64,000 nucleotides of DNA from Heterotrichella gracilis (lineage: Eukaryota > Sar > Xanthophyceae > Tribonematales > Xanthonemataceae): the NCBI GenBank assembly GCA_032358255.1, contig JAULBX010000337.1, positions 95,910 to 159,909 of the forward strand, written 5' to 3'. The first letter of the stretch is position 1, and each line of letters begins with the position of its first letter. Below are positions 1 to 41,699 of the stretch, piece by piece. The notes beneath the pieces were generated by a model. The model was not told where the DNA came from and did no database searches. It worked only from the letters and a program-made list of their open reading frames with translations. Position numbers and translations under genes: made by a program.

Positions 1-3000
1 CAGGAATGGGCCACCCTTTGGGAGGGTATCATATGATGTCCACACACAAGGGGGCCCGCTCGCTGATTCCATGCCAATGCATGATCCCGCATACCAGAAT
101 GCAGCACCGCACCCACCTGCCCCACCACCAGCTCCGGTTTGAGGAAGTGCCTCACATACTGATCCCCACACATCCTGCGAGTAGCCCTGGACCCGCTCAA
201 GGTACGCTGTCGCAGTACCCTGATCCTAAGCCTCAAACCCTTCTAAGGAATAGTCAGCTACGAGGGCCATGCCCTGGCGACCCAAGCGCCGCCCCCCAGC
301 ACCCACCTGCCCCACCACCAGCTCCTGGTTGAGGAAGTGGCGCACATACTCATCCCGAACATCCTGCGAGTAGCCCTGGTCCCGCTCCAGGTAAGCAGTC
401 TCCACGTCAGCCATGAGGGTGGAGCGGGCGATGGCCACCTCCCTGTCGCTGAAGCCATGCAGCCGCACCCGGGCCACCTCTGTCAGGAGCGCCTGTGTGG
501 CGTGTGCAGGCGGAGGTTGACAAGGGACTGGCGGGGAAACAAAGGGGACTGAACCAAATCATGGAACTTTGATGTTGATGATTCTCATGGTCAGCTGTGA
601 CAGTGGAGATGGCCAACACCACCAGCACCCCACCATCACCACCCACCTCCAGCGCCCGCCTCACCGCCCCCGGTGGCGCACTCGCAGACACCACCAGCGT
701 TTCCATGGTTGCGCACAGAGGCTCCGAGCCTGCCATGGCCACATAGAAGGGGGGGTCCTGCTGGCGAGCCATCTTGAAGAACCTCGAGTTGAGGGCGGTG
801 TGGAACAGCTGCGCCTGAAGGAGGACAGGGAATGCGTGATTACCTATCTACAATTACTTTACAGAGAGTTGACATTTATAGATGATTCCAAAAAATGGAT
901 ACCTTTACAGAAAAATGATCCAAAGAAGACTATAAACCCCTTTTCTATTCACTGTTTTTTTACTACCACGCACCTTGAGCATGTTGAGGTACTCGTTGGG
1001 TGTGCTGACCCGCTGGCGGGGGTGCTTGAAGGACAGGTAGATGGAGCTGCCCTGCGCCTCGCCATCGGTGAAAACGCTGATGCGCGGCTCGGTGTGTGGG
1101 GTGAGGTCGTGGCTGCGGGTGGGTGGGTGGGTGTTAAGGGGCGTCAGTGGCCATGCTGTGGGGATCATGGGCAATGCACATGTTGGGGAAGGTTCACGCG
1201 AGTGGGTGGGGTGCTGTCATGTATTGCCAGTGGTCAGAGACAATGGCAGGATCATTCTACCTAAATAAACTGGGAATAAGAAATGCTCACCCAGGCGCCT
1301 CGGTGACAGGCAAGCCCTGGGAGGGTTTGACCGATTAGGGGACGTGGGTGTTGGCAATGAGGCATGGGGAAGGTGGATGCTTACAAGACCAGTGGTTGAA
1401 GAAGATTGCTCGTTATTTACATCGATGCAACAAAAGGACACATCCCTGTCTCACCTGGGTGCCTTGGGCACAGGCAGCGTGGATCTGCTGGCCACCGGCT
1501 CCATGTGCCGCTGCACCAGGCGGGCCACCTCATCCACATCCTCAAAGTCGCCGGTCACCACAATGGCCATGCGCTCGGGCCGGTACCAGCGCTCATAGAA
1601 GGCCTTCACGGTGGCTGCGGGCACGTGCTGGATGATCTTCTCTAGTCCAATCGGCAGGCGGTCGGCGTACTGCGGGTGGTGGATGGGTATGGGGGGGGGG
1701 ATGCGGGCTATGTGTTTGGGTGGGTAATGAGGGCATTCGTGCCAGGGCAGGGCTGGGTGGCGCAAGCCATGTAGGGCTGCTAGTCCTGCTGCATGGCTGG
1801 ACTGCAAATAAATGTAACTATTGAAAAAACGACCTCCTTCTACAAAACAAAGAAAGAAAATCCTTGAATCCTTATTGTTTCCTTTCTTTTAAGTAGACAC
1901 AATCCCTAACTTTGGGCGTATTAGCTGCCACCAGGCCCAGCAGTACCTTTGTGCCTTGCATCATCAGCTTCCAGTGCGCCTCGCCTGTGCGTCCACGCGA
2001 GTCCTTGCCCATGCGCCACTCCTCCATCACCGCCCCCCGCTCCTTCTGCAAGTCTTCGGGGGCGCACCTAGCAGGAATAGGGTTCAGTCTTTGGGTTTAG
2101 GGTTAATGGCGTAGGTTCCCTTGGGTGCGCACCTAGGGCGCCGCACAGTTGCAATGAACTTCGGTGTGGCAAGGATGTACTGATCAACTCATTTTGAAAT
2201 AACAAATGTCAGTAAACTAGTATACCCCTGGTAGCAGGTGACCTCGGAATGCCACCAGGATTCCCCAATTGCAATTTGAGTGAATTGCAGCTTGCGGTGG
2301 CGATGGGTTGCAGAGAGGGAGGACCGATAGGTGCAATGGGCCCCAACCTGATCTTGCAGGCAAACTCGGCAAGCACTGCCAGTGCTTTATCCAGAGCTCC
2401 ATCCTTGTCCAGGGCCCCAGCCTCGTCGATGGGCACCAGCAGCTCATACACTGTCTCATCTGCAGACGTGTATGCGTTCTGACAGGGCCCAAACTCGGCA
2501 CCGATGCTCTCCAGGAACTTGACGATGTCATGGTTGCTGTAGGTCTGCATGCGGATGAGTGGGTGGGTGTCGTGTTTGGATGACTACAGAGCACACCTAG
2601 AGTGTGTACATACACGCTGCCTATGATTTAGTATGCGTGCGCGGCCATGTCATTCTCGGTGGCCATGGCCAAGCCAACATGCACTCTGGACGTCAGGGTG
2701 CTCGCTCGCTTCCAGCGAGGTTGCACGCCACTCCAGAGCGCAAGCCCATGCAGGCAGATGTGCATATGCCCCATGTCAACACTCACTGTTGCCGTGAAAG
2801 GCAAGGCGCTGCACACGATCACTCTCAGTGCCCTTGGCCAAAGCCAACAACCGGAGTGCACCCAACTCTGAATATGACCATGTACATGCATGCCCATGCC
2901 AACAAGAGTTCACGCCCGGGTGTCACTCAGAGTGCCTCGTGGTGGGTTGCAGGCAGTGCCTTTAGTCATTCTGAGGCCATGTCACATATCACCTCTGTTG

Positions 3001-21635: not shown

Positions 21636-22656
21636 TGTTTTGTTGCCCTTTCACTCAACGCAGGCATAATATTACCCTGCAGCATCTGTCACAGTCCCTT
21701 GCAAAATCATCATGGCAGCTTTATAATCTGCCACGATGTCAGATGCTGGTGGGCAGTGGAATGGCAGCAGTGTTGCACGTGCAAGCCACTGAGTGAATGT
21801 ACACTTGAGCACTTTACCGCAAATGGTGCCTGCCACCACTCGGCAGGGCCCAGCCCATTTTGTCATTCTGGTCCAGTTTGGCTCATTATGGCATCTCATG
21901 GTCTGGTTGTTTATTTTACATCCATAAAGTGCTCTGGTATGCATCATGCTTTGCAGGCACTCACTCGACTTCTGTGGCTGGCTTGCAGGCATACATAATG
22001 ATGATGACTTAGGTATCACAGACGATGTGCAACCCCAGCATAGAGTTCAATCAGGGCTGGGGTAGGCTTGCTGTCCAACCTTGCTGTAGGACGACCCGGG
22101 ATGAGGCCTCAGAGGAAGAGTGTTGTGCAGAGCAGGGGAGCAAATCAGTTGTAATGTAGGTGATCAGTGGTTTTCATATGTGAAGTAGGGTGCAGAAGCT
22201 GTACTGGGCAGACATGGCCCTTGGAGTAATTGAGAATTCGGCTCAGCTGGTGGGACTTACAGGGAGGGCATTAGGAGGCTGCTTTGTATTTTATGCACTG
22301 CCATGCGAATTGGTGGCCACGCAGGCTATGCCCTGCAAGTTCAGGGCTGTTGCCGATTGTACAACACTTGCAGTGCACGCCTTGAGCACGCCTTAGGCGC
22401 ATTGTGCGCCAGTAACATGATTATGCTGTAGTATGCTGCTCAATAGATTTAGGCGTACACTCCAGGGCGGTGCCAATTTACTGACAGTAAATGTTCAGCT
22501 TTAAGTTTTCAGGAGGTAGAATGTGGAATCACCCAGAATAGAAGGCGACGAGCCATTGGATCATGTTTCATGTTCTCTGCAAGTATTTATTGGCGCTTTG
22601 GGGTCTTTTGTTTGCGTTGGCCTGTGGTGCATTGGCTACTCCTTGGCGCTGGCAGC
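21636..22656. other. Convergent intergenic region
   Basis: It lies between the 3' ends of the double-RING gene (+) and TTM3 (-). I found only short unrelated open frames and nothing with domain or splice support. Confidence 0.5.
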
Positions 22657-24844
22657 TCACAGCAGTGTGCGATTGATGAAATTTGCAAACTTGGATGTTT
22701 TGCTGTAGCTGTACTCCACCCCATGCTCCACCAGCAGGGCCTCGAGCTTGGGCTTGTCGATGTCTGGGTTGGGCTGCACAGGGAAAGGCACCTTCAGGCT
22801 GAGGTGCATCATATTTCTAAGTGGTTGCCATGTTGGGTTGTCCATAGCTCCTAGTGTGGCTATGCTCCACCAGTTGGTTTTTGTTTTGTACTTTTTTCAA
22901 CACAGATGCTCCTGGGCTTATATACAACGACGTGCTAATCTGACTGTGACAGGTCATGCTGTGCAATTGTCAGTGACCCACAGGTGGCTTTTGGGCTCAC
23001 AATTTAACACTCGTGTCATTCAGCATGAGATTGATCGCTGCGCCGCATGCGGCATTAAGCAGTTCTATCTTGGCATTGTTCACACCACTTGTTGGATGTT
23101 GCGCAATAAAAAGAGCACAATTCCATTGTGGAATGTATGTAGCCAGCTACCTAGCTGTCAGCTCACCGTTTCCATCTCCATTTCGTACAGCGTGCCCCAC
23201 TCATACTGCGTCTCATCAAGCTCCAGGGTCAGACCGCCGTCCCACCCGTACTCTCGCCGCACGTTGCGGAACCCGCCCAGGCCCATCATGGAAGTCAAGC
23301 CATTTGTACTGCAGTTCATGAATGGGGTTTTAGGAGAATATGACACGCATTGCAGGGTTGCTGGGCAGATGGCTAGATGAGCATGCCATGGAGTCAAGTC
23401 ATGCCTGCAGCCTGGACTGAAAATACTGTATTTAGGGATTACTCTACACAGGAATTGTGATTCTACAGCACTGTCACCCAAACTAGCTCTATACAGTCAC
23501 AACTACATGCGAGCCCCATGTAATGCACGCATCCACCCGACAGTGGCCACCCGCCATGCAATCCCGTCCTCCAAAAGTCGCGCAGCCATCCATGCCCACC
23601 CTCACCTCTTGAGGTGCTGCAACAGCGGTGACTCCTGGTCCAGCAGCAGGTCAGGTGTGTCCAGGAAGGTGCGCGCGGTGGCGGGCGCAATGTCCTCCTC
23701 CACTTCTGAGGCGGTGCCCACACCATCCTTCAGGATCTGCTCGCCCTGCAAGGGGAGGGAGGTGGGGGGAAGGATGGGTAAGAATACCATTTTACCAGGT
23801 GAAAACGGATTGTAAATTCTTGTTCAATTGCTTTTACCCTAAACCCTAGACAATATAATATTACTAAGTTGTTTTTAACTATTCATTCATAATCGAGGCA
23901 TTTCAAGGAACGTGAGACACAAATGTATGAATGCGGGCAACTCTGTCATGCATGGCGCTGAATGGAACGGCCTATGCATTGCTCTAGCCCATGCCCCCCA
24001 TGCTTGGGGAGTGATGGAGGGAGGATGGGGCAAGTGTGTGCTTGGTGCAGGTGGTCGATGCGGCGGCATAGGCATGTGAGGAGGGCCTGCATTGTGATGC
24101 AAACCCTTATGCCAAGCCCACACACCATCCTGCCTGAAACCACTTCTATAGGAGGCAATGCACAAATCCACGAATGACATCAGCCCCGCCCCACCTTGCA
24201 GGTGATGACCGCCTTGCGATCCCTGTCGTAGAACCGCACGCGCAACACCACCCGCCTGCTGTTGAGCTCGCGCTGCGCACCGTCGAAGAAGAAGTTCTCC
24301 TGCTGGTGGGTGGCGCGCAGGCGGGGCTCGAGGGCGGCCGCCAGCTTGGCGTGTGCCTCGGCGTTGGGCAGGCGCAGCTTCACCTCAACCTGAGTGGTTG
24401 GGAAAGGAGAGGGATGCAGATGGGTGGTCTGGGAATGGCAAACCTGTCAATGGGTGCTGATGTGCATGTTGGGCAGGCAGCGGGTGGGGTGGGTGGTGGG
24501 GTATGCTGGCCGCGCCAAGTTGGGTGGGCGTACCTCCATGCCACCAGTGGGGGCAGTACTTCCAGGCTGTGCCATGCTGGTTGCTGCACGGTGCTGGTTT
24601 GCGGAGGAAAAGTGGCGCAGTGGATGTGCTTGGCTGTTGTTGCAATGTCTGAGTCGGACTGGGGGTTTGAGTTTGGTGCGGACTGATGCCAAAGCTGTTG
24701 TGGGTGGATGGTGTAGCAGCCGGGTGGCGAGAGACATTCTACAACTGCACAACACCTCCATTGCACTGTCGCATACAAGGTATGAGGGTTGAAGGCAGAA
24801 AGGCATGCGTGGCTCACTGCTAATGTATGTGGCCTTACCTGCAT
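22657..24844 (-). CDS. TTM3: TTM3-type triphosphate tunnel metalloenzyme (CYTH domain)
   Basis: Predicted protein of 199 aa. It hydrolyses tripolyphosphate or related triphosphates inside a metal-binding beta-barrel. Exons 24839-24844 (ATG CAG only), 24195-24389, 23606-23745, 23167-23308 and 22657-22773 join in phase. Family blocks: VEVKLRLPNAEAHAKLA, QENFFFDG, RRVVLRVRFYDRDRK, EVEED, GLGGFRNVRREYGW, LELDETQYEWG, YEMEMET and a final SKTSKFANFINRTLL, all in the order of Arabidopsis TTM3. The signature ExExK reads QVEVK here, so the first Glu is Gln. The start codon overlaps the stop of CDC26 (TGATG) within one shared exon, so translation from a bicistronic mRNA is likely. Confidence 0.92.
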
Positions 24845-25310
24845 CACTTTTGCAGGCCAATGCGCTGTGCAACGGTTGGCTTCTTGTCCTACAAAGGGCA
24901 TTTGGAGCAATAGTTAGCCCACTGTAAGATGATGTACGAAAGGATTGGTCCCTAAACGGCTGCTAAGATGGGCATAGGCAATGCATACATGCCTATATGC
25001 ATGCATATGCACATGCGGGCAGACCAAACCCATACCAGCTGGAAGGACAACGCTCCCTGTGAAGTGGACTGGGTTTCTGCTGCCAAACGGTCTTGCGCGG
25101 CCTTCTTTGCTGCTTCGTACTGCAACAGGGGCAATACTTGTCAACAGCATGCAAGGAACATCGAGCCCTGGGCCACAGAGGTTCAGCCTGGCGGTTGCTC
25201 GGTGTTTATTAAAAACCGCTGTTTAAACACAAGATTTTTCCCAGTGATTTCCGTGCCTCTTCCTTGTCTTCGGGCCTCAGCTCTATTCTCGTGGGCTTCC
25301 TTCTTAGCAT
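24844..25310 (-). CDS. CDC26: CDC26/APC12, anaphase-promoting complex subunit
   Basis: Predicted protein of 60 aa. CDC26 stabilises the TPR subunit APC6/CDC16 of the anaphase-promoting complex. Exons 25257-25310, 25036-25119 and 24844-24888 give MLRRKPTRIELRPEDKEE, then YEAAKKAAQ and onward, ending TVAQRIGLQK. The MLRRKPTR start and the final RIGL match the family, and the length is typical. Intron 1 (25120-25256) must use a GC donor (GAG|GCACGG) to keep the frame and the expected EDKEEYE junction. The intron before exon 3 has a textbook branch point, CTAAC. The exon that ends CDC26 also begins TTM3. Confidence 0.92.
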
Positions 25311-25914
25311 GGTGTCGAATTGCTATAGCTCAAGATGCTCTTGCATGTGGCCGCTATTGCAACCCTCCAAGCGCATCGGTGCGAACCCGTAACCACCACT
25401 TATCAGCTGCCAGTCAGCTGCTACGTTCTGCGAGGATACTTTCGCTTTTACTAAAAGTTTTAGAGAAACCCAGGTCCTTCCCAGAGCCTGGTCACCAGGC
25501 TGGTGTTGGGCTCCTGCAGGGTGAGCCTGGTCACCAGGCTGGTGTTGGGCTCCTCATGAGTTGCAGACCTACTATTCCGAGTTGAGCAGGGTTGGCATAA
25601 TGACCAATTAAGCGGTTAGCAACGTGGCACCTATAAGTTCCACCACATAAGCTTCAACCCATATCGTGGCTTTGGCAAGGCCTTGCCATCTACCTCCCAC
25701 GCAGACACCTGCATGCCCATGCATGCATAGCCCGCAGTGCTGAGATAGCTAACTTCCTTCTAGATGCTACTGAATGCTGGTCACAACTAGGTTCCTGTTC
25801 CGTCGCTGTAGACGTGGTGTCTCCTTGTTGCCCCACTGTTCAATTGAGGGCAGTCTAGATCTGGAACGGCAGGCGTCATTTTGTAGTGACACCTCGAGTG
25901 GGCGAGTTGCTGCA
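25311..25914. promoter_or_regulatory. Divergent promoter region of CDC26-TTM3 and the adenosyltransferase
   Basis: This 604 bp gap separates the two start codons. It contains a tandem 39 bp repeat (25484-25522 and 25523-25556), each unit holding the near-palindrome AGCCTGGTCACCAGGCT. No other motif is obvious. Confidence 0.5.
25484..25556. repeat. Tandem repeat with internal palindrome
   Basis: Two units of GAGCCTGGTCACCAGGCTGG followed by TGTTGGGCTCCT. The inner 17 bases read almost the same on both strands, which would suit a dimeric DNA-binding protein. Confidence 0.85.
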
Positions 25915-27773
25915 ATGGCCGACACACAGAAGAGGTATGCTATGGTCAAGAAGGCTCCACTGCTTGCCCAAACCTCCACGCCTTGCTTGCAGTGCAACCC
26001 AGAAGCACAGCACAATGCATGCATATGCCTCATACCTAGAATTGCCCAGCACAATGCATACACATCCCTCATTTTCTAGAACTGCCCAGCACCTTGTACG
26101 ATTAGGCCTTGGTTGCATCAACCTCTGGCTCAGTTCAGTGGGACATCTGTGTGCGAATAGGTACAAGGTGTACACCAAGACAGGCGACAAGGGCGAGTCT
26201 AGCCTGTACAACGGGCAGCGCAAGCCGAAGCATGACCCAACCTTCCAAGCCCTGGGAGACGTGGATGAGCTGAACTCTGTCATTGGGGTTGCGCGCGAGT
26301 GCTGCCGCGGGCTGGATGCTTCTCTTGAGGAGCAGGTAAGCGTCGCTGAAGTCTGCACAGGCCAACCACAACAGTACCCTACAACCCTAGACCCTCATCA
26401 AATACAACAGGTGGTGGTCTGTGTAATCAAACGTTTCGCATGCCAGCGTTCTGCAGCATGCATGCCAATGCTATTCCCTGGGCAAGGCGCTGACCCAACC
26501 CGCTGGGGTGTCCACGCCATGAGTGGCTGCACATATGCTCCGGAGTGGATCCATCCATGCCTGCAGCTGGACGAGTTGGCTGTGTAAATCATATAATTTG
26601 TGTGCATGCCAGCGCCCTGTAGCATGCGTGGCAATACTTAACCCTGTGCAAGACACTGCTCTAACATGCTGTGACACCCATGCCATCCCACATGCAAAGG
26701 CTGACAACACACCCCAGCACCTCACCCCATTTTGCGCCCCGGCATGCAGCTTGAAGAGATCCAGTCTCGCCTGCTGGACGTGGGCGCCGCGGTGGCTACA
26801 CCCATAGACACCTCCTCCGATGCCAAGGTGCAGCGCACGCAGTTTTCTGAGGAGCACGTATCCAGCCTGGAGGCATGGATTGACGCCATGGATGAGCACC
26901 TGCCACCCCTGCGCAACTTCATCCTGCCATCAGGTGGGCCATCATGGGGGTAATCATGCCACTGCATTGTGAAGCCCTGCTTGCCTTCTCGGATTTTCGG
27001 GTCCCTTCCTTTCTTGAGGCGTTCTCGTTAAATGTAATTTCTGCATCATCATTGTTTCTGATGCGCTGGCATGATGCCCTGCATGATGGCCCTGGCATGG
27101 GTCACCCCCACCATCACCATGTCTGATGGGTGACGACACAGGTTTATGTCTGTATTTTGCATTATTTCCTGCTTGTTTCTTAATGTAATTAATCTGCCCC
27201 AGGTGGCCAGGGCGCCTCTTTCCTGCACATGGCGCGCTCAATCTGCAGGCGGGCGGAGCGGGCGGTGGTGGTGCTGGTGCATTCCAACAGCACCGATGCA
27301 GTTGTGGGCATCTACCTCAACAGGCTCAGCGACTACCTCTTCACCGCTGCACGCTACGCGGTAAGGCCACGTGCACCAAGCAATTGCCAGGGCTACCCAT
27401 GACGCATGAAGCGTATATACAAACATAAAAGGCATATACAAACAAACAAACAGATAGGCATGTATACTAGGCCGCATGGTGGTGCACTGGAAGTGGCGCG
27501 AGCACTTTGTAAGGGGGGCTATGTGACAATTAAAACTCTTTGCTGTCAGCAGAGTGGGGTCCCATCGTGCCACACACAGATCATGTACGGCTGCCATCGC
27601 GACTAGCTGTCAAGGGTGCTGCATGCAAAGCTGTACCATGCTTGCATACAATCCCAGGCCAATATTGGCGGCTCATGTTGTGACCCACCACAGCCACCAA
27701 CAGCGGTCCATGTGTCGCGCAGGCAAAGCTAGCAAATCAGCCAGAGACAATATGGAAGAAAGCCACCACCTGA
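25915..27773 (+). CDS. MMAB: ATP:cob(I)alamin adenosyltransferase (MMAB/PduO type)
   Basis: Predicted protein of 195 aa that makes adenosylcobalamin, the cofactor of methylmalonyl-CoA mutase. Exons 25915-25934, 26161-26335, 26750-26933, 27203-27360 and 27723-27773 match in phase. Family motifs: [15 protein letters not shown] (ATP-binding N-terminus), [45 protein letters not shown] and [16 protein letters not shown]. The tail [10 protein letters not shown] matches the end of animal MMAB. The protein starts almost directly with the catalytic motif ([15 protein letters not shown]), so this model has no mitochondrial presequence. A stop codon lies in frame just upstream of the ATG. An upstream exon supplying targeting cannot be excluded. 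Confidence 0.93.
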
Positions 27774-28646
27774 ATTGCATATGATGCTGAGTCAAGACAG
27801 GTTGCTGAGTAGGGGTCCAACTTGGTGACAGTCTGATTGGGATTGTGGTGCAGTGAGTGAGCAGAACCATTTGACCCTTTGATGCAGCAAACAGTAACTG
27901 GTGCCGTGATTGCTCCCTTTTAATTCAATGGATGCAAGTCGTGCGTTTCAAGCTCACCATTACGATGGCCGGGGTCCAATTCCGCAGCATATATGTAGTC
28001 AGGATCACACAACAGCTCAGCAAGTCTTAGACAGAGAGAAAGAAACGTATCGCCCCCTCAGCAGATCAGATCAGATTGGCTTAAAAAACAAGGTTACATC
28101 ATACACTAGCATACAGTTGCTACTAGCTTGAGGTTTGCAGCATGATATATTATGAGTGCATACCATATCAAAATAACGAGCAGCTGCTGAACAAGTTGTT
28201 GGTAACAAACGACAATGTGATACAACAAATGCCTTATACAGTGCAGCGATCATCATAAATAACAGCTTCGTAAAGAGATGCTGCTACTCATCATTACTGG
28301 CCGTCACAAAAGAAAGAGGAAAGAAATAAAATGAATGTTGAACGCAGCTTCAAGCTGGATAGAAAGCGGCAAAAGCTGTAAAGCATAGCCACTAGGAAAA
28401 ATTGACATGGAACCGCATTCCTGGGAGAGGTAGCTTGTACTGCCTGCCTCCCCAGCCCATCCCTCCCCACCCTAAGGCTTCCAACGCTGCCTGCTCTCCC
28501 CCGTGCTGCCCACCCCCTGTCAGGAAGGGGTCCCCATCTTATTCAACTCCCATCCAGTGCTCTGAAGCCACTGCAAAGCCTTCTGACCATGATGTCCCAA
28601 CCTCCAATATTCTCCCTTGCACTCAGCTTCGACAGCTGGTGCCGAG
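27774..28646. other. Convergent intergenic region
   Basis: 3' flanks of the adenosyltransferase (+) and CHAT copy A (-). No coding support. From about 28500 it shares decayed similarity with the region near 35130, the edge of the segmental duplication. Confidence 0.45.
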
Positions 28647-31600
28647 CTACAGCTCAAGGTGTGCAAAGGGGAAGCCATAGGTGCAGAACACAGCCCACAC
28701 AGCCGGGCCCTGCTCCCGATACGCCTCCAGGATCGCCCTCCCCGCCTCGGTGGCGGCAACCGCAATGGTCTCCCCCCTGCCCAACGCGCCGTACAGCACC
28801 TGTGCAAAAACAGGAACATAAGAGATTTCACGGGCCGGCAGCGCCACAGCATCCTCGGGGCAACCATCGCACTCATATCAGAATAGAAGGGGATTAATAC
28901 GGGGAGCAGCATCATATGTAGGTTTCCCTGGGCTTTGTTATACTATCTGAGAGGCATAGGCAGGTGCGGCCCACCCTGGGACGCGGCCACCAGAAGAACA
29001 ATTAGATGCGGCAGCGCCATAGCCATTCCCAGCGGCCAACCTCATAAGGGTCAAGTGGCCAAAGGCAGATGACGTTAAAAAGAGGAGCTATTTTTTGTTG
29101 TAATAATAGGTCCAATCACTATCTTATTAACCTTGCAAGTATTAAAGAGTTTTTAAATGATACCCATACTTAAACCAGTTTTCTCAGGATACTGACTACA
29201 GGAATAAAACAGCTTGGAAATAGGTCTGGGTGTTACAAAGCGCACTCACCTGCGCATGGCGAGCAGCCACCCACGCGTCCGCCTCCCACCGGGCCACGCA
29301 GGCGCACGCCGCCCCCGCCGCAAGCAGCTCATACCCCACGCTCTGCAGCCCCTCAGCCATGCTCACCCCTGACCCCGACAAGCACACATGCAGCACCACA
29401 AGGGAGGCGCACAGTCGCAGGGCGCCCAGGGCAGTTGCCGGCAGCCGCTGCCCATCAATGAAGAGCACCGCGCCCTTTTCCTGCTCCACAATGTCCCGCC
29501 CGTGGCAGAAGAATTCAACCACGCCGGCCCCCGGCAGGACGCGCAGCAGGAATTCCACCGTCACCTGCTGCTCCCTTGGATTACCCTCCCTAGGGTTGTG
29601 GCACAGGACGTGCAGCAGGGGCGCCATCCCTTCTGTACGCACCGCTGCAGCAAAGGCAGCTATGCACGCATGGGCATGCTGGCCCGCGGCCAACAATTCC
29701 CTGTCTCCACCAGCCACCTGCTCTCCAGAGTCACTCACTCCCCTATCTGATTTGGAATCACTTCTCCCAGCTGCCACCTGCCCTCCTGTTCCTGGGTCCG
29801 TCTTGTTTTGCCCCTGGCTGGGGCCTTGCTGGGGCTCGTTCCGGGGGTCGATCACCGCCAGGACCTGCCTACCCTCAGTGGTGTTGCATGTGGTGCTGCG
29901 CAGGCAGCTCTCCTTGAGTGTGGCCAAGGAGTGCGCCATGTGAATGCTGTGGCGCTGTATCAGGTAGCGGGAGCCATAGTATAGCGCCTCAAAGGGGACG
30001 CCAGCAAGGGCCTGCAAAAATATGCAGGGTGCATTAATGGCAATATTGCAAACCTAATGTCAAAGACCTAAATCCTAAACCTAAAACCTTCAAAAAGGGC
30101 CTCATTAGACAGGAATGAATTACCAAGCGCGATGTTAGGACCTCTACACGTGGTCCCTAAAAACTGCGTACAGTGTTGAATTTCAGTGGTACAATAGTTG
30201 TGGTTCCCCAGTTATGGTAAAATCAACCATGCACAAAACCAGCAGCGCTGATATCCTGGAACGATGTCTACATCAGCTGTCAGCCTCAATCACCTTGTCA
30301 GGGATGATGATCACCGGGGTGTCTTCAGACCCCTCACTTGGCACCAGCCCCGCCTCCACCAGGGGAGCCCACAGCAGGGCATGCAGCTGCTCCAAAGCCT
30401 CGTGCTGCTCCTCCAGGGTGTAAAACCTTGCTTTGTCATCTTTGTCACCCTGCTGTGTGTGTTGTGCCTGGCTGTCTCCTGTGGGCGTTTTCTTTCTTTC
30501 TTTCTTTGGCCGTACCCGCTCGCACGCCACCTGCAAGGAGGCAGTACGGTAGTACAACCACTATTACGACACTAAAGTCACATGAAAAATTACCACCATC
30601 ATTATGTTGAAAATAAGAGCCATCTTATTTACTACAAATTTGCAGATGGTGATATCTTCTTTGAGTGTCCCACAAAGTGTACAGCAACGGAGCACTCGCA
30701 GCAAACGAGATCTGTCAGGAATCACGCCATTTTGATCAGGAGGCACGAGACAGTGAGGGCAAAGTGCCAGACTCGTCACACCACCTCCACAGCCCCAGGC
30801 AGAGTGATTCGACACAATAGAAACTTTCACACCTGACAACTGGCGTTTCTAGGGAATAGGGATGGGATTCAGGGTGCAAAATGACCGCCAAGCTCGTTGC
30901 CTCACCTCCACAGCTCGAGGCAGCGTAATCGCGTCCAGGGGTTGCTCCTTGCTGTCCCTAGCGAGCGGGAGCGCCCAGTCGCACATCCCCTGCGCGGGCG
31001 CGTCTATCACCACCCCTTGCACATCTTGGCTGCCGCAGCTTGCCACCACCACCACCAGGCCTGGCTCGATGAAGGGCATGGGAAGCTCCTCGTTGGCGGG
31101 GTTGGCCAGGGTGGTGGCGGTGAGGGTGGTGTAGGATACGATGAGGGCATTACGGGGGAGGTGGCGGATGAGGGCGCGCAGGGTAGCGAGGCCATCTGTA
31201 CCCTCCATGGGCAGGCTGGGGCTGGGCTCCTGCAGTAGGGCCAAAAAGGGTTAGGGGCTGAGGCTAGGCTTTTGGGGCAAGGGGCAAGGGCAACGGGTAT
31301 GCTCCTATATACGAGGATAGCGGGCTGTGGGGGGTTGCCACGTTGAGGGGGTGATGTGATGGGTATGTTGGGCATGATGGATTACACAGTTGGGGGATGG
31401 GGACCACACAATGAGAATGAGGACCCTTGAGCAGGGATGACAGTCGCACAGTGCAAGAGATTGCCAGCCCTGGGCCTGGGCATGTTTAGGGACAGCTGAA
31501 TACCCTAGGTGAGGTTCCGCACCTTATCAACACCATTGAATAATGATAATTCATGAAAACTAATAATGAGGAATTCATCACATTGTGCTTATGACCTCAT

Positions 31601-34600
31601 GCACCAATTCCATTTGGTAATTATAAAAAATACCATCCTATGTATGCTGCATACCTCCTCTCCCGGGAAATCCTCCCGGTTGACCTCCCGCAGCCTCTGG
31701 CACAGCGCCTGTGCCCTTGCCAGGTCAGCAGTCAGCATCACCCGCGCCCACTGCTGGGGGCCGCATGGCCCCTGCCACCTTGCCAGGTACTCCACCATGC
31801 ACTGGTAGGCAACCCGGGCAAGCTCCAGAACCTGTGAGCATCCCCACACCAGGTTGAGCCAATTTCTAGGTGGGGGGACGTGGGTGGGTAGGCCCAGGGC
31901 CTCATGGGCTGATGAACTGACCTATCAGGACATCATATCACGCGGGAACAGCTGTCGGTATAAACAGCTAATTACGGTTTGGGTTTTGATTTCAGGTTAA
32001 AAGTTACATGAGGACGACTTACCGACACAAGGAAGGCTCCTATGAACTGCTGTCGATCTGGGCTGTATTGCTGCAATGCATGCACCCCACCTGCCGCCTG
32101 CCGTCGACATCCCTGTCGCCATCCACATTCAGCAGGCGCAGCCCATGCTGCAGCAGCTCCAGAGGGGCCTCTGTCTCCCAGTCGACGGGCCCCGCACGCG
32201 CAGCGCGCAGCAACGCCCACGCCTGGCGAATGGTCCAGTCTGCCTGGCGATCAGGCGGGGCATCCTTCAGCATGGTCCCCCGATGAAACTTCACCTCTGG
32301 GAGAAAATCAGCGTAGAAGCGGTAGTAGTCTTCAGGGTGGGTGGCGCCAGCCTGGCGCGCAGCCTCCACCCCCTGCTGATGGGCGTCTATCTGGGGACAA
32401 GAGGCATACAATGCACGTAAGTTCATCCTCCTATTCCAACCATTGCTGGTTGCGGCCGGAATGGAGGCGGGAATTCATTATTGCCAATCACGTGGTCATT
32501 ACAATTGATGATCTCATTAATCAAAATTGAACACGTGGCGGAGGCTGGCATTCTGTCCATCTGCTTTTTTCTTGATCAACTTTCGTACATGAGATGAGCA
32601 GCATACTTCTTCACTCTATCTACTTGTGAATATTTCAGCTATTATAATTGCAATCACTTGTAGAACCAACGTACGGTACATGCTGTATGACATTTCCAGA
32701 AACTTGTTTGCAAGTTATTATAGACCCACGCTGGTCCCATTAAATCACAGACTTTCAAGCAAGCAGGGTGCGTTTTTAACAGACTTTTGAGCTCAGATTG
32801 GCTCCCTGAATATGACAATCAAATAACAGCATGATAATATTGTATGCAACATACAAACTGGTGAACCTATCTTCCCTAGCCGCACAAACTCTTATTTAAC
32901 GCATATCCATGTTTGGCTTTTATTTACCTGAACAGGATTGTCTGGATACAAGCTAGCCTGCGCCTCTGCCACCCTGTCAGCCCCCAGCACGGAGACAAGT
33001 CGAGGCAACACCTGCTCCGCCATACGCGCAGGCGTGCGCTGGTCCTGCGGCAAGTTCAGCCACTGGGTCCAATTCACCATGGTGCTGTCAAACGCCTGCA
33101 GCCTCTCTCTGCACTGCTTCTGCAAGGCAGCGTCGCCGCTTGAATCAGCCAGTGCCTTGAGCGTCCCCAATGCGAGCAGCATTTCCTCCGAGAGGGCCTG
33201 TAGCTGGCGCTTGTCCAGCAGGTCAGCGTGGAATTTCTCGTAAGTGTCCAGGATTTCGGTGAGGATGATTGTCCTGAGAAGCAAGTCTGGAGGGGGGGGG
33301 GGGGGCGTTGAGAGGAGAATCGCAAGAAGGTCAAGGTGGAGAACGCAGGCGCAGGGTGCCAACAACACGCACAAAGTGGCCCAACATGGGTGCACTGCTT
33401 GAACTTGGTGATGTGCAGGTCAATGGTTTTAGATTTGACTGTGGCTGTGCAATATCGCCGTGTCACTACAGTTTCTTGAGGCAGAACACTTTGCAACCTG
33501 CACGCAAAACACCCTAGGGGAGTACAGCAGGGACCAATGCTTTCAACGGTACCACGCACCAATCACAGTAGACTCCCCAATGCCTGGCAGCACCTCTCTG
33601 GCTCTGTCAAACAGCTGCAGGGCTTCGGTCACCTCCTGGCGCCCGCGGCGCGCTCTGCCACCACATATGTGCACCTGTGCATGCCATAAGAGTGTACAGT
33701 TGGGAGCGTCAAGAACAGGGTGCAGAGCCACTGCCAAGCCCAAACTAACCTGCCACCCTGTGGGCTCCAAACCAACTGGCAAACCACTAGCTCTGCTTTC
33801 GACACCCTTGCAGCCTTTCTTCAGGAGGACTCCTTGAGTGACTCCCAAGTGACTTCAACATATGTGATGTGTATTAAAGTCCCCTTTCTTTCTGTACTGG
33901 TAACGGGCAAGGCGTTTGCACTGGAGTTTCTGGGTGCCCACCTGAGCGTGCCACAACCTTGCACCAGCCGGCACGAGGATAGGGTGCGGGAAGTCAGCCA
34001 CATACTCGGCGTATCTCTGGAGGGCCTCGTCGTATTGGAAGGTGGTCTCAAGGTGGAAAATGTCATCCATGCGTGTCATCTCTGGCCAGTCATTGGCAGA
34101 TTCGATAGCCACAGAGGGTGGCGATGGTCCTTCGCCTAAGGTCTCCTCCTCCGCCATAGTAGGGTGGGAAAGCGAGAAGGTTGCTCTACCTTGGCACGTT
34201 TGAGAGCTACTGTGCAGAGCTACTGTGCAGAGCTACTCGTTTGAGGGCTACTGTGAGACGGGTACTGGCAAGGTTTGATACAAGCGCTATGGTGCTTCTC
34301 CTAGTGACCCGCGTACCTATTTGCTACGGTGCATTGCTATCTTCTAACCCGGCAGCAAGGGTCCTTTTAGAAGTGCATATGACGGAACGGCAACCGAAAG
34401 ACACAGGGAGAGGGCAAGTCCAGGTGCTCCGCGCAATAATGCATGCATATGCCCACCATGCCAGGGTTGGCCACCGTGCCTGTGCTCAAAAGGGTGAAAG
34501 GCAGCGGCAGCGAGAATTAGGGGGCTCTGCCTAGTTACTAGGCTCGCAAGCATAGTTTGCAGCGTAAAACATACGTTTGCTTGTTCCAGGCACAATATGT

Positions 34601-35044
34601 GGGGTTTTCCAGCACCTCAGCAGCTGCAGCCAAGTGCCGGTTCAGTACGAGCATATGCATGCATGTTATATTCACAATTTGCAAGCTGAGAAAGCTGAAA
34701 AAGCTGCTGATTTGAGTACAGAACGTTAAAAACAAACCCAAGAAAGGCGCGCAGGTACTCTGCTGCACCCAGTGCACACCCATGCACCCCAATCGATAAG
34801 CTAAGCCCACAGCACACCTCGTGCTTGCAACTGATACTCTGCAGTTCTTTACCATTACAAAGTTCAGATCTAGCTGTCACCAAAGTATGGTTTTGTGTCC
34901 GCTACCGAACCCTCACAAGCCTAGTATCCCACAAGGCGCATCGTGGGGCGTCCTAAAACCCCCTGAGGTACAAGCGCAAACCCTCATGTTCCAATGCCCC
35001 ACGAGTCACGCTTACATCCGCCGGCTGTGTCCAGCTGACCGCCA
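28500..35044. repeat. Segmental duplication, unit A (CHAT copy A)
   Basis: It contains CHAT gene A and its upstream flank. The same exon order, intron positions and flanking blocks recur in unit B. The far upstream flank 34900-35000 resembles 41330-41410. Edges are approximate. Confidence 0.75.
28647..34157 (-). CDS. Helical/TPR-like protein with C-terminal CHAT protease domain, copy A
   Basis: Predicted protein of 880 aa. Exons: 33942-34157, 33560-33674, 32928-33286, 32091-32390, 31655-31831, 30906-31229, 30294-30530, 29250-30011, 28647-28799; phases agree. The N-terminal two thirds is alpha-helical with TPR-like pieces (ALQRYAEYV, ALQLFDRAREVLPG). The CHAT domain (caspase-clan, named for HetF-associated TPR proteins) spans exons 7-9: IIIPDKV/ALAGVPFEALYYGSRYL, then VEFFCHGRD with His at about residue 746, VLFIDGQ, LVVLHVCLSGSG with Cys at about 786, and AAGAACACVARWEAD. 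Both dyad residues are present, so it is probably an active cysteine protease. Relative to copy B it has a roughly 40-residue Ser/Asp/Gly insert before the catalytic part. Substrate unknown. Confidence 0.82.
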
Positions 35045-35246
35045 CCCAACAACTGTTAGGCTATTACATGTCAGCATTCTTCTTCCCAACAACTGTTAGG
35101 CTATTACATGTCAGCATTATCAGTGTACCCCTGCCAGTCCCAGCAAGGGGTTTTCCTTCTGAACCAACCCCCACCCAATGCTTTGAGGCCAGAGCTCATG
35201 GAGCCCACACATCCACTGTGCTCAGCTACAACAGCCGGTGTCTTGC
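34158..35246. other. Spacer between the two CHAT genes
   Basis: Presumed promoter of copy A and 3' flank of copy B. The part up to about 35040 is similar to the promoter flank of copy B (40700-41410). The junction carries a 34 bp direct repeat. No gene was seen. Confidence 0.5.
35045..35118. repeat. 34 bp direct repeat at the duplication junction
   Basis: CCCAACAACTGTTAGGCTAT followed by TACATGTCAGCATT occurs at 35045-35078 and 35085-35118, a period of 40 bp, exactly where unit A ends and unit B begins. Confidence 0.9.
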
Positions 35247-38200
35247 TCACAAATCAAGGTGTGCAAAAGGGAAGCCGTAGGTGCAAAACACAGCCCACAC
35301 CGCCGGACCCCGCCCCCGATACGCCTCCAGGAGCGCCCTCCCCGCCTTCGTGGCAGCAACCGCAATGGTTTCCCTCCGGGCCATCGCGCCGTACAGCACC
35401 TGTGCATAAACAGGAATGAAAGGTTTTGAGGGCTTCGGCGGCACTGCAGCCATCCCTGGTGGCTACCCTTCACACAAATGTGAAGGAAACCAACATGGGG
35501 ATCGTGCCACAGCCTTCCCTAGGGTTTCCTTATACTGATCAGGAGGGCATAGGCACAAGCACCACTGGAGTGCGGGCCACCAGAAGAGAATTGAACATGC
35601 AGCTGTGCCATTGCCATCCCCCTGGTGGCTATTCTTGTAAGGGTCGAGTCCCTAACTCTGCCTCTGTGCATCCTTGCACCCACCTGCGCATGGAGCGCCG
35701 CCACCCCCGAGTACGCCTGCCAGCGTGCCATGCAGGCGCACGCCGCCCCCGCCGCCAGCAGCTCATACCCCACGCTCTGCAGCCCCTCGGCCATGCTCAC
35801 CCCTGCACCCGAGAAGCACACGTGCAGCACCGCTAGGGAGGCGCACAGGCGCTGGGCGCCAAGGGCAGTCGCCGGCAGCAGCTCCCCATCAATGAAGAGT
35901 ACCGCGCCCTTTTCCTGCTCCACAAAGTCCCGCCCGTGGCAGAAGAATTCAATTACGCCAGCCCCCGGCAGGGCATGGAGCACGTTATCCACGGTCACCT
36001 GCTGCTCCTCTGGGTAACCCTCCCTAGAGTTGTGGCACAGGACGTGCACGGGTGGTCCCTCTGGGCGCACCGCCGCAGCAACGGCAGCTATGCACGCAAG
36101 GGCTTGCTGGCCCGCGGCCAACAGATCATCATCCTGGCTTGGGCCTTGCTGGGGCTCATTCCGGGGGTCAAGCACCATCAGAGCCTGCCTACCAGCAGCG
36201 GCATTGCATGTGGTGCTGCGCAGGCGGCTCTGGTGGAGCGTGGCCAAGGAGTGCGCCATGTGAACGCTGTGGCGCTGCAGCAGGTAGCGGGAGCCGTCAT
36301 ACAGGGCCTCAAAGGGGACGCCAGCCAGAGCCTGCACATGCACGGGTGGATTAATCGCCAGGACTGCAGACCATAATCCCAAAACCCCAAACCCGTGACC
36401 CTTACACATCATACAGCGCCTCGAAGGGGACGCTTGCATAGACAGGGGTGGAATTCCAATGCGATGTTAGGGCCTCTACAGAAGGTCCCCAGAAAACTGC
36501 ATGTCCTAAGATCGCATTGTACCATAATTTCTATTCTCTAATTGTGGTAAAATAAACCATGCACACAAATCAGCAGCAATGATCCGCTGATTCCCTGTGT
36601 ACTCCGACAGCTGTCAGCATGGCGCAGTCACCTTGTCAGGAATGATGATCACCGGAGTGTCTTCACACCCCTCGCTTGGCACCAGCCCTGCCTCCACCAG
36701 TGGGGCCCACAGGAGGGCATGCAGCTGCTCCAAAGCCTCATGCTGCTCCTCCAGTGTGTGAAACCTTACTTTGTCATCTTTGTCACCCTGTTGCGTGTGT
36801 TGTGCCTGGCTGTCTCCTGTGGGCATTTCCTTTCTTTCTTTTTTTGGCCGCAGTCGCTCACACGCCACCTGTAAGGGAGCAATAGTACAACCACTATTAC
36901 TGGGCTAGAATAGCATGAAAAATGACCACCATTATTATGTTGCACATATGTCTAATTTTATTATTTTTTGGCCGCAGCCGCTCACACGCCACCTGTAAGG
37001 GAGCAATAGTTTAGAACCACTGCTACTACGCTAAAAGCCATCGAATATGACCACCATTCTTATACCTAGCGTTCTAGTGTTCAGGGTAAGCTCGTCATAC
37101 TACCTGAACATTAGTATTACACACCTCGCCCTGTACCTTGCGAACCTAGGGTTTAGGGTGCAAAATGACCGCCAAGCTCGTCGCCTCACCTCCACAGCTC
37201 GAGGCAGCGTGATTGCCTCCAGGGGTTGCTCCTTGCTGTCTGCTGGCTGTGTGTCGCCGTGTGTGGAGGCTTGTTGTTTCCTTCTTTCTTCCCTAGCAAG
37301 GGGGAGCGCCCAGTCGCACATCCCCTGCGCGGGCGCGTCTATCACCACGCCTTGCACATCTTGGCTGCCGCAGCTTGCCACCACCACCACCAGACCTGGC
37401 TCGATGAAGGGCATAGGAAGCTCCTCGTTGGCGGGGTTGGCCAGGGTGGTGGCGGTGAGGGTGGTGTAGGATATGATGAGGGCATTACGGGGGAGGTGGC
37501 GGGTGAGAGCACGCAGGGTGGCGAGGCTGTCCGGTCCCTCCGCGGGCAGACTGAGGTTTAGTTCCTGCATTAGGGTTAGAGGGTTAAGAGTTTGGGGTTA
37601 AGGGTTAAGGGCTGGGTTCCTGCATGAGGGTTAGGGGTTTAGGGCCTAGAGGCTGGGCTCCTGCATGAGAGGGTATCAGGCTGGGTTGGCAGAAAGCGGG
37701 GGTATGCCACGTCAAGTGGGTGAAGTCATGGTTAGGTTGAGGATGAGGCCTATCGAGCATAGATTAGGGTTTAGGAGATTGCCATCTCTGGGCCTGCGCG
37801 TGGCAAGGGCTGGACAGCTGCCTACCCTAGCTAGGGTTCCGCAACTCCTCTTAAATAGTGGATATTTCATCACCATTGCACTTCTGGCCTCATGCACCAT
37901 GGTTTCCATTTTGAGAGATGTTACGCACCTCCTCTGCCGGGAACTCCTCCTTGTTGATTTCCCGCAGCCTCTGGTGCAGCGCCTGTGCCCTTGCCAGGTC
38001 AGCAGTCAGCATCACCCGCGCCCACTGCTCAGGGCCGCATGGCCCCTGCCACCTTGCCTGGTACTCCACCATGCACTGGTAGGCAACCCGGGCAAGCTCC
38101 AGCACCTGTGACCATCCCAGTAAAAATCATCCCAAATCAATTCGAGCCCAGAAGAAGAAAGACAGACAGGAATACTCAATGTGGCAGCCAGGCATAATTA

Positions 38201-40598
38201 AAACACACATACATAGCCGACTTTCAGGTGGAATGGGGGAAATGGGTGGGTAGGCCCAGGGCCACATGGGTTGACGACCTTACCAAAACAAGACACCGGA
38301 TTGCGCAAAACCAGCAAATGGTATCCAATGCCAGGGCCAAACTGTTTGGCAGCGCATGTGGAGGACTTACAATTACAATTCCTTTTGATCTGGGCTGTAC
38401 TGCTGCAATGCATGCACCTCACCTGCCGCCTGCCGTCGACATCCCTGGCGCCATCCACATTCAGCAGGCGCAGCGCATGCTGCAGCAGCCCCAGAGGGGC
38501 TTCTTTCTCCCAGTCAACAGGCCCTGCACGCGCGGCGCGCAGCAGCGCCCATACCTGGCGGATCGCCCAATCCGCCTTGTCATTGGGCATGGTGGTGGCG
38601 TCCTGAAGCAAGGTGCCCGCCACCAGCTTCACCATTGGGAGGAACCTGGTGGTGAAGAGGTAGTAGTCGCCAGGGTGGGTGGCGCCAGCCTGGCGCGCAG
38701 CCTCCAGCCCTCGTTGCACTGCCTCTACCTGGTGGCGAATGGGACACAACAATGTATTAGTGACACACAGAAATCAACACTACAAGCAATGATTATTTGC
38801 AGTGTTTTCCAGAAAACGACAAGGAGCATATCATACATGACACTTAATTCCCCCTATTCCAACCCTTGCTGGTGGGGGATGGGAGGGAGACATAAGGGGA
38901 TCATTGTTTATAATCATTGGTAATATCATTATCTATGATCAAAATACTTGGCTGAGACTGGCGCTCAGTCATTCTGTCTCCTCCTCGACCCTCGAACATC
39001 ACACGAGCAGCACACCAGCAAGTTCGCGACTTTATTTTTCTAACCGCTTATTGCATCCGCATGTACAGTCAACACCATGATCACATCTTGCATGTATAAT
39101 AGATCAGGTTTGAACCTATGTCACCTGGAGGGGGTCGTCTTGCCCGCACAAGCTAGCCTGCGCCGCTGCCACCCCGTCAGCCCCTAGCAAGGAGCCAAAT
39201 CGGGGCACCACCCCCTTCGCCAGCCTCTCAGGCGTGCGCTGGTCCTGCGGCTGGTTCAGCCACTGGTTCCAATACCCTAGGGTCCTGTTGAAGATCTGCA
39301 GCCTCTGGTTGTATTGATCCTGCAAGGCTGCGTTGCCGCTTGATTCAGCAACGTCCTTGAGCGTCTTCAACGAGAGCAGCAGCTCGTTTGAGAGGGGCTT
39401 GAACTGGCGCCTGTCCAAGAGCTGACGGTGGAGCTTCTGGTGCGTGTCGAGGATTTCGGTGAGGGCAATCGTCCTGAGGATGAGTTCTGCGGGGAGCAGG
39501 GGGATGTAGAGTTAGGTCTAGGGTTTAGGGTTTAGGGTATAGGGTCTAGGGTTAAGGACCGGGCCTGCAGGGGGGAAGGGAACATAGGAACCTGCTCAGA
39601 GTGCCGAACAAAATGGCGCTGTTGTCACCGATACAGTCACAGCATTGACTCTGGGATGAGAACTTGGGACCGCAGTGCCTGCAAGCTGTGCAGGAAAAAA
39701 CGTGCGTTTAAATGGGTTTACTTGCTGTGCTTGGAGACAGGGACGAGCATTTTGTGCCTGGTTTTGTATAAAAGACACAGCCTTTTGCAATGCTGTGATC
39801 AGAACCAGTACCTAGCTCCCCATGAGTGGTATAAAACTCCCTCAGGATGCACAGTACTGGGCACTTGAGGAACGAAGAACAAGCAACTTCTTGATAGACA
39901 CACCGGGTCCATTAGACTCCCCAATGCCTGGCAGCACCTCCCTGGCTTTGTCAAACAGCTGCAGGGCTTTCGTCATCGCCTGGTGCCCGTTGCGGTGCGC
40001 CTTGCCGCCACTGATGTGCGCCTGTGCATGCCATAGGAGTGTAAAGTTGGAAATTTGAAGAATGCGTTGCTGAGCCATGGTCGAGCCGAAATAGCCTGCC
40101 ACCCATTAGGCTCCAAACCACCTGGCAAACACACTAGCCACAAGGTGCACATGCCATAGGAGTGTCAACACTAAATGGAAGTTTTTGGTAGAGGCACCCC
40201 ACCGGGGTCCTGAAGCTCCACCACCAGGCACCTCAACAGGGTCCTGAGCTGTTGCCAAGCCCAAAAATGGGTTGCCACCCACAAAGGCCTCTAAACCAAC
40301 CGGCAAACAGAAGGCTCTGCCTACGAAACTGTCCAGTGCAGCCTGTCCCAAGGGCAAAGCGATGCCTTGTGGGTATGTAGTAGAGACATACCTGAGCATG
40401 CCATGCTCTTGCACGGGCCACACCAGGTGTGGGCCTTGGGAATCTGGCCACGTATTGGTCGTAGCGCTGGAGGGCCAGCTCGTACTCGAAGGTGAGCTCG
40501 CAAAGGTTGAATATCTCATCCTTGTCAATGTCCTCTGACCAGTCGATAAATACAGGCGGTGGTGGCGATGCCTCGCCCACAGCCGTCTCCTCCGCCAT
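35247..40598 (-). CDS. Helical/TPR-like protein with C-terminal CHAT protease domain, copy B
   Basis: Predicted protein of 860 aa, paralogue of the neighbouring gene. Exons: 40392-40598, 39904-40021, 39125-39486, 38423-38728, 37929-38105, 37190-37564, 36632-36868, 35684-36331, 35247-35399; all phases match and the intron positions equal those of copy A. TPR-like piece: ALQLFDKAREVLPGIGES. CHAT domain: ALAGVPFEALYDGSRYLLQR, IEFFCHGRDF (His about 726), LAVLHVCFSGAG (Cys about 766), AAGAACACMARW. Exon 6 is 51 bp longer than in copy A (insert REERRKQQASTHGDTQPA). The introns before exons 6, 7 and 8 carry extra copies of the neighbouring splice junctions. Active protease predicted; role unknown. 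Confidence 0.82.
36409..36446. repeat. Decayed copy of CHAT B exon 8 start
   Basis: It matches 36298-36336 (ATACAG.GCCTC.AAGGGGACGC) and lies 111 bp upstream of the true acceptor in transcript direction. Confidence 0.8.
36963..37025. repeat. Copy of CHAT B exon 7 start and acceptor
   Basis: Nearly identical to 36841-36900: it covers the first codons (VACERLRPK), the CAG acceptor and about 20 bp of intron. It is 124 bp away in the intron. It has an acceptor but no usable donor, so it does not look like an alternative exon. Confidence 0.85.
37556..37675. repeat. Three copies of the CHAT B exon 6 acceptor region
   Basis: The CTGGG.TCCTGCAT.AGGG block recurs at 37556-37579, 37616-37635 and 37656-37675, with TTTAGGG-like runs between them. 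Confidence 0.65.
39511..39555. repeat. Interstitial telomere-like TTTAGGG run
   Basis: Several TTTAGGG/TCTAGGG/TATAGGG units in the intron of CHAT copy B. This is the longest such run in the window. Similar 1-3 unit runs sit at 6430-6449, 14753-14768, 20289-20306 and 42421-42441. Confidence 0.8.
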
Positions 40599-41699
40599 AG
40601 TAGGGTATTTCAAGGGAACATTACCGTTGGTAGAGCACAACTTCAACGTACTATGATGTTACAAACGCCTAGAAATGTGTAGTATGTAACCCGTGCAATG
40701 CAGCCCCCCTAGTAAGCGGGTGGACTGCAGTGCATACTGGTGGGGTGAACTAACAGTGCTTTATTGTCTTCAACCCGGCAGGAGCCTTCTTCATATGCAT
40801 ACACCCACGCCTTTGCAACCAAAAAGGCACAAGGAGAGGGTGAAGGACAGGTCAGGTGCTCTGCGCGTGCATGCATATGCCCACCATGCCAGGAAACGGT
40901 GAAGATGGGTAAACGGCTGCACAAGGAGCGAGAGATGGACGGCTCTGCCTAGCTGCTAAGCTAATAGTCAGAGCTTACAGCGTCAAAAACTAAGTTCGTA
41001 TACTTGTTTCATGGACATGTAGGGTTTTGCTACGACCTCAGCATCTGCTCAGCAGTGCCGGTTCAGCGAGCAGTGCATGCATGCAGTGAGTGTCCCCAAT
41101 CTTGGTGCTGCGAATGCTGAAAAGCTGCTACTCCGAGTTTAAACCTTTGTAAAATACCCTAACTTAAGGTGTGCAGGTACCCTGCCCCACCCAGTGCACG
41201 CCCATGCAGCCAACCTACATGCTAAAACATACAGCAAAACCTGCACTCTTGAACGTCCATACTCTGCAGTTTACCACGACAAAGTATCAATCAATAAAAT
41301 GTGAAACCTGCCCTTGTGTCAGCGCCTCAACACCTACAAAGCCTGGTGTCCCGCAAGGCCCTGAAAACCCTTAGTTAGGTACATGAGCAAACCCTCCTCA
41401 GGATGGAGTGGATTCATGCCACACGGGTCATGCTGACTTATATGAGCTGCGTACCGCCTGACCATCGCCCATTTTACAAAAGTGAAACACAAGCCCACGG
41501 TCCCACTAGCAGAAGAAAGGAAGTAAGGAAACGCCCACAGGTGGCAGCCAGGTACAACACACACACGCAGGGCGTGTTCCATCTCCAAAAAACACCCTAA
41601 AAGCGTGAATCGCAAGGCATAGCCTAAATCATAAACTCCTCAAAATAAATAGTTTGCCTGAGTAAGTTTGCCGGGGTGGGAAGAAATATGGAGGATTCA
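40599..41699. other. Upstream flank of CHAT copy B
   Basis: Presumed promoter of copy B, alignable in patches with the copy A flank (for example around TGCATGCATATGCCCACCAT at about 40869 and 34440). No gene was seen. Confidence 0.45.

Follow-up and report, generated by a model that had tools for sequence, protein, structure and literature searches.

Two coding regions follow one another directly on the reverse strand of the window (the whole 64,000-nt stretch of DNA analysed here): CDC26, encoding a cell-division protein that is a subunit of the APC/C, and TTM3, encoding a polyphosphate enzyme with a CYTH domain (PF01928). Their exons are listed in Table 1. The three-exon model of CDC26 gives a product of 60 amino acids, residues 1–41 of which match the Pfam family PF10471 with 41.7 bits (cut-off 24.5). 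Its first eight residues, MLRRKPTR, are identical in solved APC/C CDC26 chains (e.g. 4ui9_G), which we take to be human. Intron 1 of CDC26 is of the GC-AG type, with the unusual donor at 25255-25257; by eye we found no GT donor that would keep the frame into exon 2, the GC donor being the only one that does so. TTM3 is 41–44% identical to three solved TTM3-type enzymes, the Arabidopsis protein AtTTM3 among them. A tblastn search of viral contigs returned no relatives of either TTM3 or CDC26.

The surroundings contain several other recognisable features (Table 1). A cobalamin adenosyltransferase gene stands head-to-head with CDC26-TTM3, the start codons being about 600 bp apart, and an exact direct repeat lies between it and CDC26. 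Further along, a multi-exon gene occurs twice in tandem, the two paralogues having 72–94% DNA identity over the aligned blocks. Plant-type, telomere-like CCCTAAA repeats are found in a TTM3 intron and also just upstream of an exon of a CHAT gene copy. Together with the identities of TTM3 given above, intronic repeats of this type make plausible the chlorophyte source that the initial annotation assumed.

Table 1. Features of the CDC26-TTM3 locus and its neighbours (positions in the window; a slash marks a splice site)
Feature	Coordinates	Strand	Remarks
CDC26 exon 1	25257..25310	-	MLRRKPTRIELRPEDKEE; 3′ end is the GC-AG donor GAG/gcacgg
CDC26 exon 2	25036..25119	-	YEAAKKAAQDRLAAETQSTSQGALSFQL
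CDC26 stop exon, 50 nt	24839..24888	-	CDC26 part is 24888-24844
Gap from CDC26 exon to MAQPG AUG, 263 nt	24576..24838	-	C/A-rich in its later part
TTM3 60-nt exon (best placement)	24534..24593	-	phase 0/0; HRAATSMAQPGSTAPTGGME; two AUGs (24575, 24539); encodes the first ExExK Glu
TTM3 exon VEVKLRLPN...AVITCK	24195..24389	-	
TTM3 exon GEQILKDG...LLQHLK(S)	23606..23745	-	
TTM3 exon (S)TNGLTSMMGLGGFRNVRR...EMEMET	23167..23308	-	
TTM3 last exon PNPDIDK...NFINRTLL, then stop	22657..22773	-	
AATAAA, candidate poly(A) signal for the CDC26-TTM3 unit	22586..22591	-	its first base is nt 66 after the TTM3 stop
CCCTAAA repeats in TTM3 intron	23837..23849		
CCCTAAA repeats upstream of CHAT-copy exon	~39503..39547		
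Direct repeat, 32 nt	25484..25554		39-nt spacing; palindrome GCCTGGTCACCAGGC inside
Cobalamin adenosyltransferase gene	25915..27360	+	PF01923, 63.9 bits for one exon; coordinates given without a traced 3′ end
First tandem gene copy	28622..34870	-	56 bits to PF12770 (CHAT, caspase-like) for one exon
Second tandem gene copy	35221..41292	-	
M16-type peptidase fragment	1451..1888	-	PF05193, 30.2 bits
Helicase C-terminal domain fragment	58048..58419	-	PF00271, 40 bits

The stop exon of CDC26 is flanked by tttgtag/ and /gtaagg and carries the last 14 codons of the gene and its TGA, reading DKKPTVAQRIGLQK up to the stop and then TGATGCAG. The TGA (24846-24844) overlaps with an ATG (24844-24842), which is followed by CAG and then by the donor gtaagg. 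The initial annotation had described a 50-base exon holding the end of CDC26, its stop and an overlapping ATG, and the letters are indeed as claimed. Since TG follows 202 of the 1997 TGA trinucleotides on both strands of the window (~10%), a TGATG at a TGA stop is unremarkable on its own; that this one is in the frame of TTM3 would add a factor of about 1/3 to the chance estimate.

What follows the overlap depends on splicing, and we scored the candidate sites with a position weight matrix. Its training set, 16 GT donors and 22 acceptors, came from genes of the window whose exon boundaries we had placed by eye, guided by where similarity to paralogues or homologues ends. These are 16 of 17 donors (the GC donor was left out) and 22 of 23 acceptors (one with two matching places was skipped); six further exon donors, three per CHAT gene copy, were also left out. 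Acceptors 24889 and 24390 belong to the training set, while donors 24838 and 24533 and the 17 AGs of the 263-nt gap do not. Donor 24838 (CAG/GTAAGG) scores 11.35 bits, exceeding 15 of the 16 reference donors scored leave-one-out, and ranks among the best 0.27% of GTs on this strand, which makes the CDC26 stop exon look like an internal one. The best of the 17 AGs in the gap is at 24594, with a moderate 5.86 bits that exceed 10 of the 22 references and place it in the top 5.3% of AGs; an out-of-frame acceptor at 24695 follows closely (5.74 bits). Acceptor 24594 would open a 60-nt exon that ends in ATGGAG/gtacgc in phase 0, at a donor (24533) scoring 8.06 bits and ranking in the top 1.8% of GTs. 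Its inclusion in the mRNA, which we infer, would give ME/VEVK and the product MAQPGSTAPTGGMEVEVKLRL. The 5′ end is the least certain part of the exon.

With acceptor 24594 the frame opened by the TGATG is that of TTM3, beginning MQHRAATSMAQPG… and running on as MQHRAATSMAQPGSTAPTGGMEVEVK, whereas with acceptors 24695, 24584 or 24577 it would pass the TTM3 start out of frame. The first three AUGs after the CDC26 start are then all in the TTM3 frame: 24844 (gcaaaagugAUGc), 24575 (gcaaccagcAUGg) and 24539 (acugguggcAUGg). The second of these, the AUG of MAQPG, lies 24 nt downstream of the TGATG AUG in the mRNA; it is separated from the CDC26 stop by 268 nt of DNA, or by 23 nt in the spliced mRNA that we favour. 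It also has the better context, with A at -3 and G at +4, and, according to the cited part of PMC11892635, A at -3 and G after the AUG are the conserved positions around start codons.

What is the role of the 60-nt exon then? It would supply the first glutamate of EVEVK, the ExExK hallmark of CYTH enzymes (PMC8233210, in the cited passage). The solved chain of AtTTM3 (5a5y) begins with MEVEVKLRL, and its Glu-2 is a metal ligand, the excerpted text of PMC4641920 stating that E2A and E2D strongly reduce hydrolysis. When the protein is aligned with AtTTM3, all ten active-site residues checked (E2, E4, K6, R52, R54, K76, E90, E169, E171 and K200) are identical with the exon included. If the splice goes directly from 24839 to 24389 the protein begins MQ/VEVKLRL, the first glutamate of the motif becomes glutamine and 9 of 10 residues are identical, E2 to Q being the sole loss. 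The other nine, from E4 to K200, which make up the acidic patch and the basic tunnel, are identical in both models (9/9). The CYTH profile also scores higher with the exon than without it (65.3 against 62.2 bits), both values being well above the cut-off of 23.2.

How general this glutamate is can be judged from 33 bacterial CYTH loci, four of them from a motif-pattern scan of genome contigs (which found these four bacterial loci and no alga among them) and 29 of the best-scoring ones among 54 Pfam matches, which were obtained in 38 of the 60 genomes searched and of which 30 came with a locus. The first glutamate of ExExK is present in 33 of 33 loci read, and arginine takes the place of the motif lysine in 3 of 33. 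The other 24 of the 54 matches came without a locus and stand outside the 33; in two of these 24 the profile match starts downstream of the motif, at position 23 or 33. Two observations speak against the argument from the motif: of four solved TTM3-like sequences that matched, two being AtTTM3 itself, one (8h92) has glycine at the first position, and in the AtTTM1/2 cluster ExExK is absent altogether (PMC8233210, cited passage).

Are CDC26 and TTM3 then made from one transcript or two? A single CDC26-TTM3 mRNA appears to be the likeliest reading. The strong donor sits only 5 nt past the CDC26 stop codon, none of the elements TGTAA, AATAAA and ATTAAA is found in 24846-24576, and the pair is a published bicistron elsewhere; all three support the shared transcript that the initial annotation had proposed. 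An AATAAA suited to the whole unit lies downstream of TTM3 (Table 1). Since the same hexamer occurs in CDC26 intron 1 too (25210), a hexamer alone is weak evidence. The accompanying claim that CDC26 cannot come from a separately terminated mRNA is, however, too strong, as CDC26 might also yield an unspliced mRNA whose end falls within the 263-nt gap. In its full form this alternative would give TTM3 its own promoter and 5′ exon in the gap, with AUG 24575 or one upstream as the first, possibly with a transit-peptide-like extension MSLATRLL..., and CDC26 its own poly(A) site there, so that the gap, mostly intron in the single-transcript model, could act as the TTM3 promoter. The C/A-rich later part of the gap is consistent with this, as are the better context of AUG 24575 and the MAQPG frame, which stays open upstream through MSLATRLLHHPPTTALASVRTKLKPPVRLRHC.... 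That frame is transit-peptide-like and leads into TTM3, but we dropped it as evidence because the other two frames are also open upstream of MAQPG, with few or no acidic residues, all three being open across the C/A-rich stretch 24576-24738 on the reverse strand. Against separate genes stand the quality and position of donor 24838, the lack of these three poly(A)-type elements in the gap and the observation, taken from excerpted reports, that Chlamydomonas and Arabidopsis express the same pair as a single transcript. We consider two separate transcripts unlikely.

A single mRNA would carry consequences for its stability. Counted from the CDC26 stop, the exon junctions of the favoured mRNA come after 5, 65, 260, 400 and 542 nt, and under the usual rule for nonsense-mediated decay (NMD; junction distance of 50–55 nt) translation of CDC26 would make the message NMD-prone. 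The Arabidopsis bicistron is likewise stated to be NMD-prone in the cited part of PMC11892635. Against this, a later Arabidopsis study saw no NMD sensitivity of the transcript RT11 under its own conditions and notes, in the passage cited, that the 2019 CDC26-TTM3 paper had reported RT11 as accumulating in upf mutants (PMC9768141); we read RT11 as being CDC26-TTM3.

The second question is how ribosomes would reach TTM3 on such an mRNA. A UGAUG is a textbook geometry of reinitiation, familiar from viruses and prokaryotes, and with the best acceptor its AUG is in the frame of TTM3. On the other hand, CDC26, at 60 codons, is long for eukaryotic reinitiation, and the viral-type reinitiation element UGGGA is not visible by eye in the 134 nt of CDC26 exons 2–3. 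As far as the cited passages go, stop-start overlaps of this kind are seen in influenza B (UAAUG) and prokaryotes (TGATG), coupled termination-reinitiation is apparently used by some human mRNAs with overlapping ORFs (PMC3923131), and, in Chlamydomonas, Onishi and Pringle preferred reinitiation as the explanation where linkers were short (PMC5144980). However, in two Auxenochlorella bicistrons a stronger ORF1 start lowered the output of ORF2, and these in vivo tests, done on other gene pairs, found ORF2 output to be inverse to ORF1 start strength and favoured leaky scanning over reinitiation (PMC11892635, excerpted text); in Arabidopsis read-through transcripts, second ORFs are described as rarely translated (PMC9768141, cited part). 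A bicistronic mRNA that yields TTM3 mostly through reinitiation at the TGATG after translation of CDC26, the mechanism suggested in the initial annotation, is pointed to only by the geometry of the overlap, and we regard it as rather improbable.

We propose instead that leaky scanning dominates at this locus. The proposal is by analogy with Auxenochlorella, since the CDC26 start (gacaccAUGc, with A at -3) is not obviously weak and AUG depletion in CDC26 is not significant. The gene has zero internal AUGs, for which the probability is 0.45 under dinucleotide shuffling, 0.81 under synonymous resampling and 0.14 from base composition, and depletion was therefore dropped as evidence.

Two further readings concern the 60-nt exon itself. 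As it is symmetrical (phase 0 at both ends), a form lacking it is a possible minor isoform, and one could imagine the exon as a cassette switch, with the TGATG as a shared start, inclusion giving active TTM3 (EVEVK) and skipping a Glu-less TTM3 (QVEVK). We find such a switch very doubtful; if true, it would mean that ORF2 is still translated, which in Arabidopsis supports the output of CDC26, while the enzyme activity is off. Highly improbable is the original model in which TTM3 starts at the TGATG, is split by the next intron after codon 2 and continues directly at 24389 as MQVEVK: its acceptor 24390 is good (7.47 bits, a value that is not independent since this site is in the training set), its frame is open and 8h92 provides a TTM3-like protein without the first glutamate, but this start and splice are unsupported because the catalytic, metal-binding glutamate is lost, and we rejected the direct splice on that ground and on the lower CYTH score, as it also ignores an exon of the right phase with a high-ranking donor.

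The reading we prefer is thus one bicistronic CDC26-TTM3 unit that includes the 60-nt exon and in which leaky scanning dominates over reinitiation, with a rough probability of 0.57. On this model the mRNA would join the CDC26 stop exon to the 60-nt exon and then to the core exons of TTM3. Ribosomes recognising the CDC26 AUG would produce the APC/C subunit, while those scanning past it would start TTM3 at 24844, 24575 or 24539, and any of the three in-frame AUGs would yield the same CYTH enzyme with EVEVK intact. The TGATG would then be a possible, optional start of TTM3 rather than a proven one, and the overlap may not be the usual start site. Overlooking an exon of 60 nt is enough to give a stop-start overlap the look of an obligatory start.

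The pairing itself is known. The bicistron CDC26_TTM3 is stated to be conserved in plants and green algae and is among the Chlamydomonas loci named by Duenas et al. (2025, PNAS; PMC11892635, cited part), so that the proposal of an arrangement ancient in the green lineage, made for this DNA initially, is already in print; the preprint likewise names the bicistron (PMC11291117, cited part). In the literature we found no paper presented as dealing with a TGATG junction of CDC26-TTM3, supplements being outside the scope of this search, and we claim no novelty for it. The locus most likely represents a further example of the known plant and green-algal bicistron, one more, with a corrected gene model, for the deeply conserved bicistrons known from green plants and algae. 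In Arabidopsis and other plants (Lorenzo-Orts et al., 2019; PMC6973038, PMC7943633, as excerpted) the pair is the same, with CDC26 as the upstream ORF, whereas here there is in addition a possible TGATG overlap and an in-frame extra N-terminus of TTM3. The same gene pair is found in Chlamydomonas reinhardtii and other green algae (PMC11892635, PMC11291117, cited parts), the Chlamydomonas CDC26/TTM3 locus belonging to a high-confidence set selected on Ribo-seq support (PMC11892635). Algal polycistrons are described in the cited text as having a small spacer between the ORFs (PMC11892635), while here the first AUG after CDC26 overlaps its stop codon. The geometry of the overlap is shared with the UGAUG and UAAUG pairs of viruses and prokaryotes, although TTM3 may in this case start elsewhere than at the overlapping AUG; if the overlap is used, the locus would be a natural substrate for deciding between leaky scanning and reinitiation at a pair of nuclear genes.
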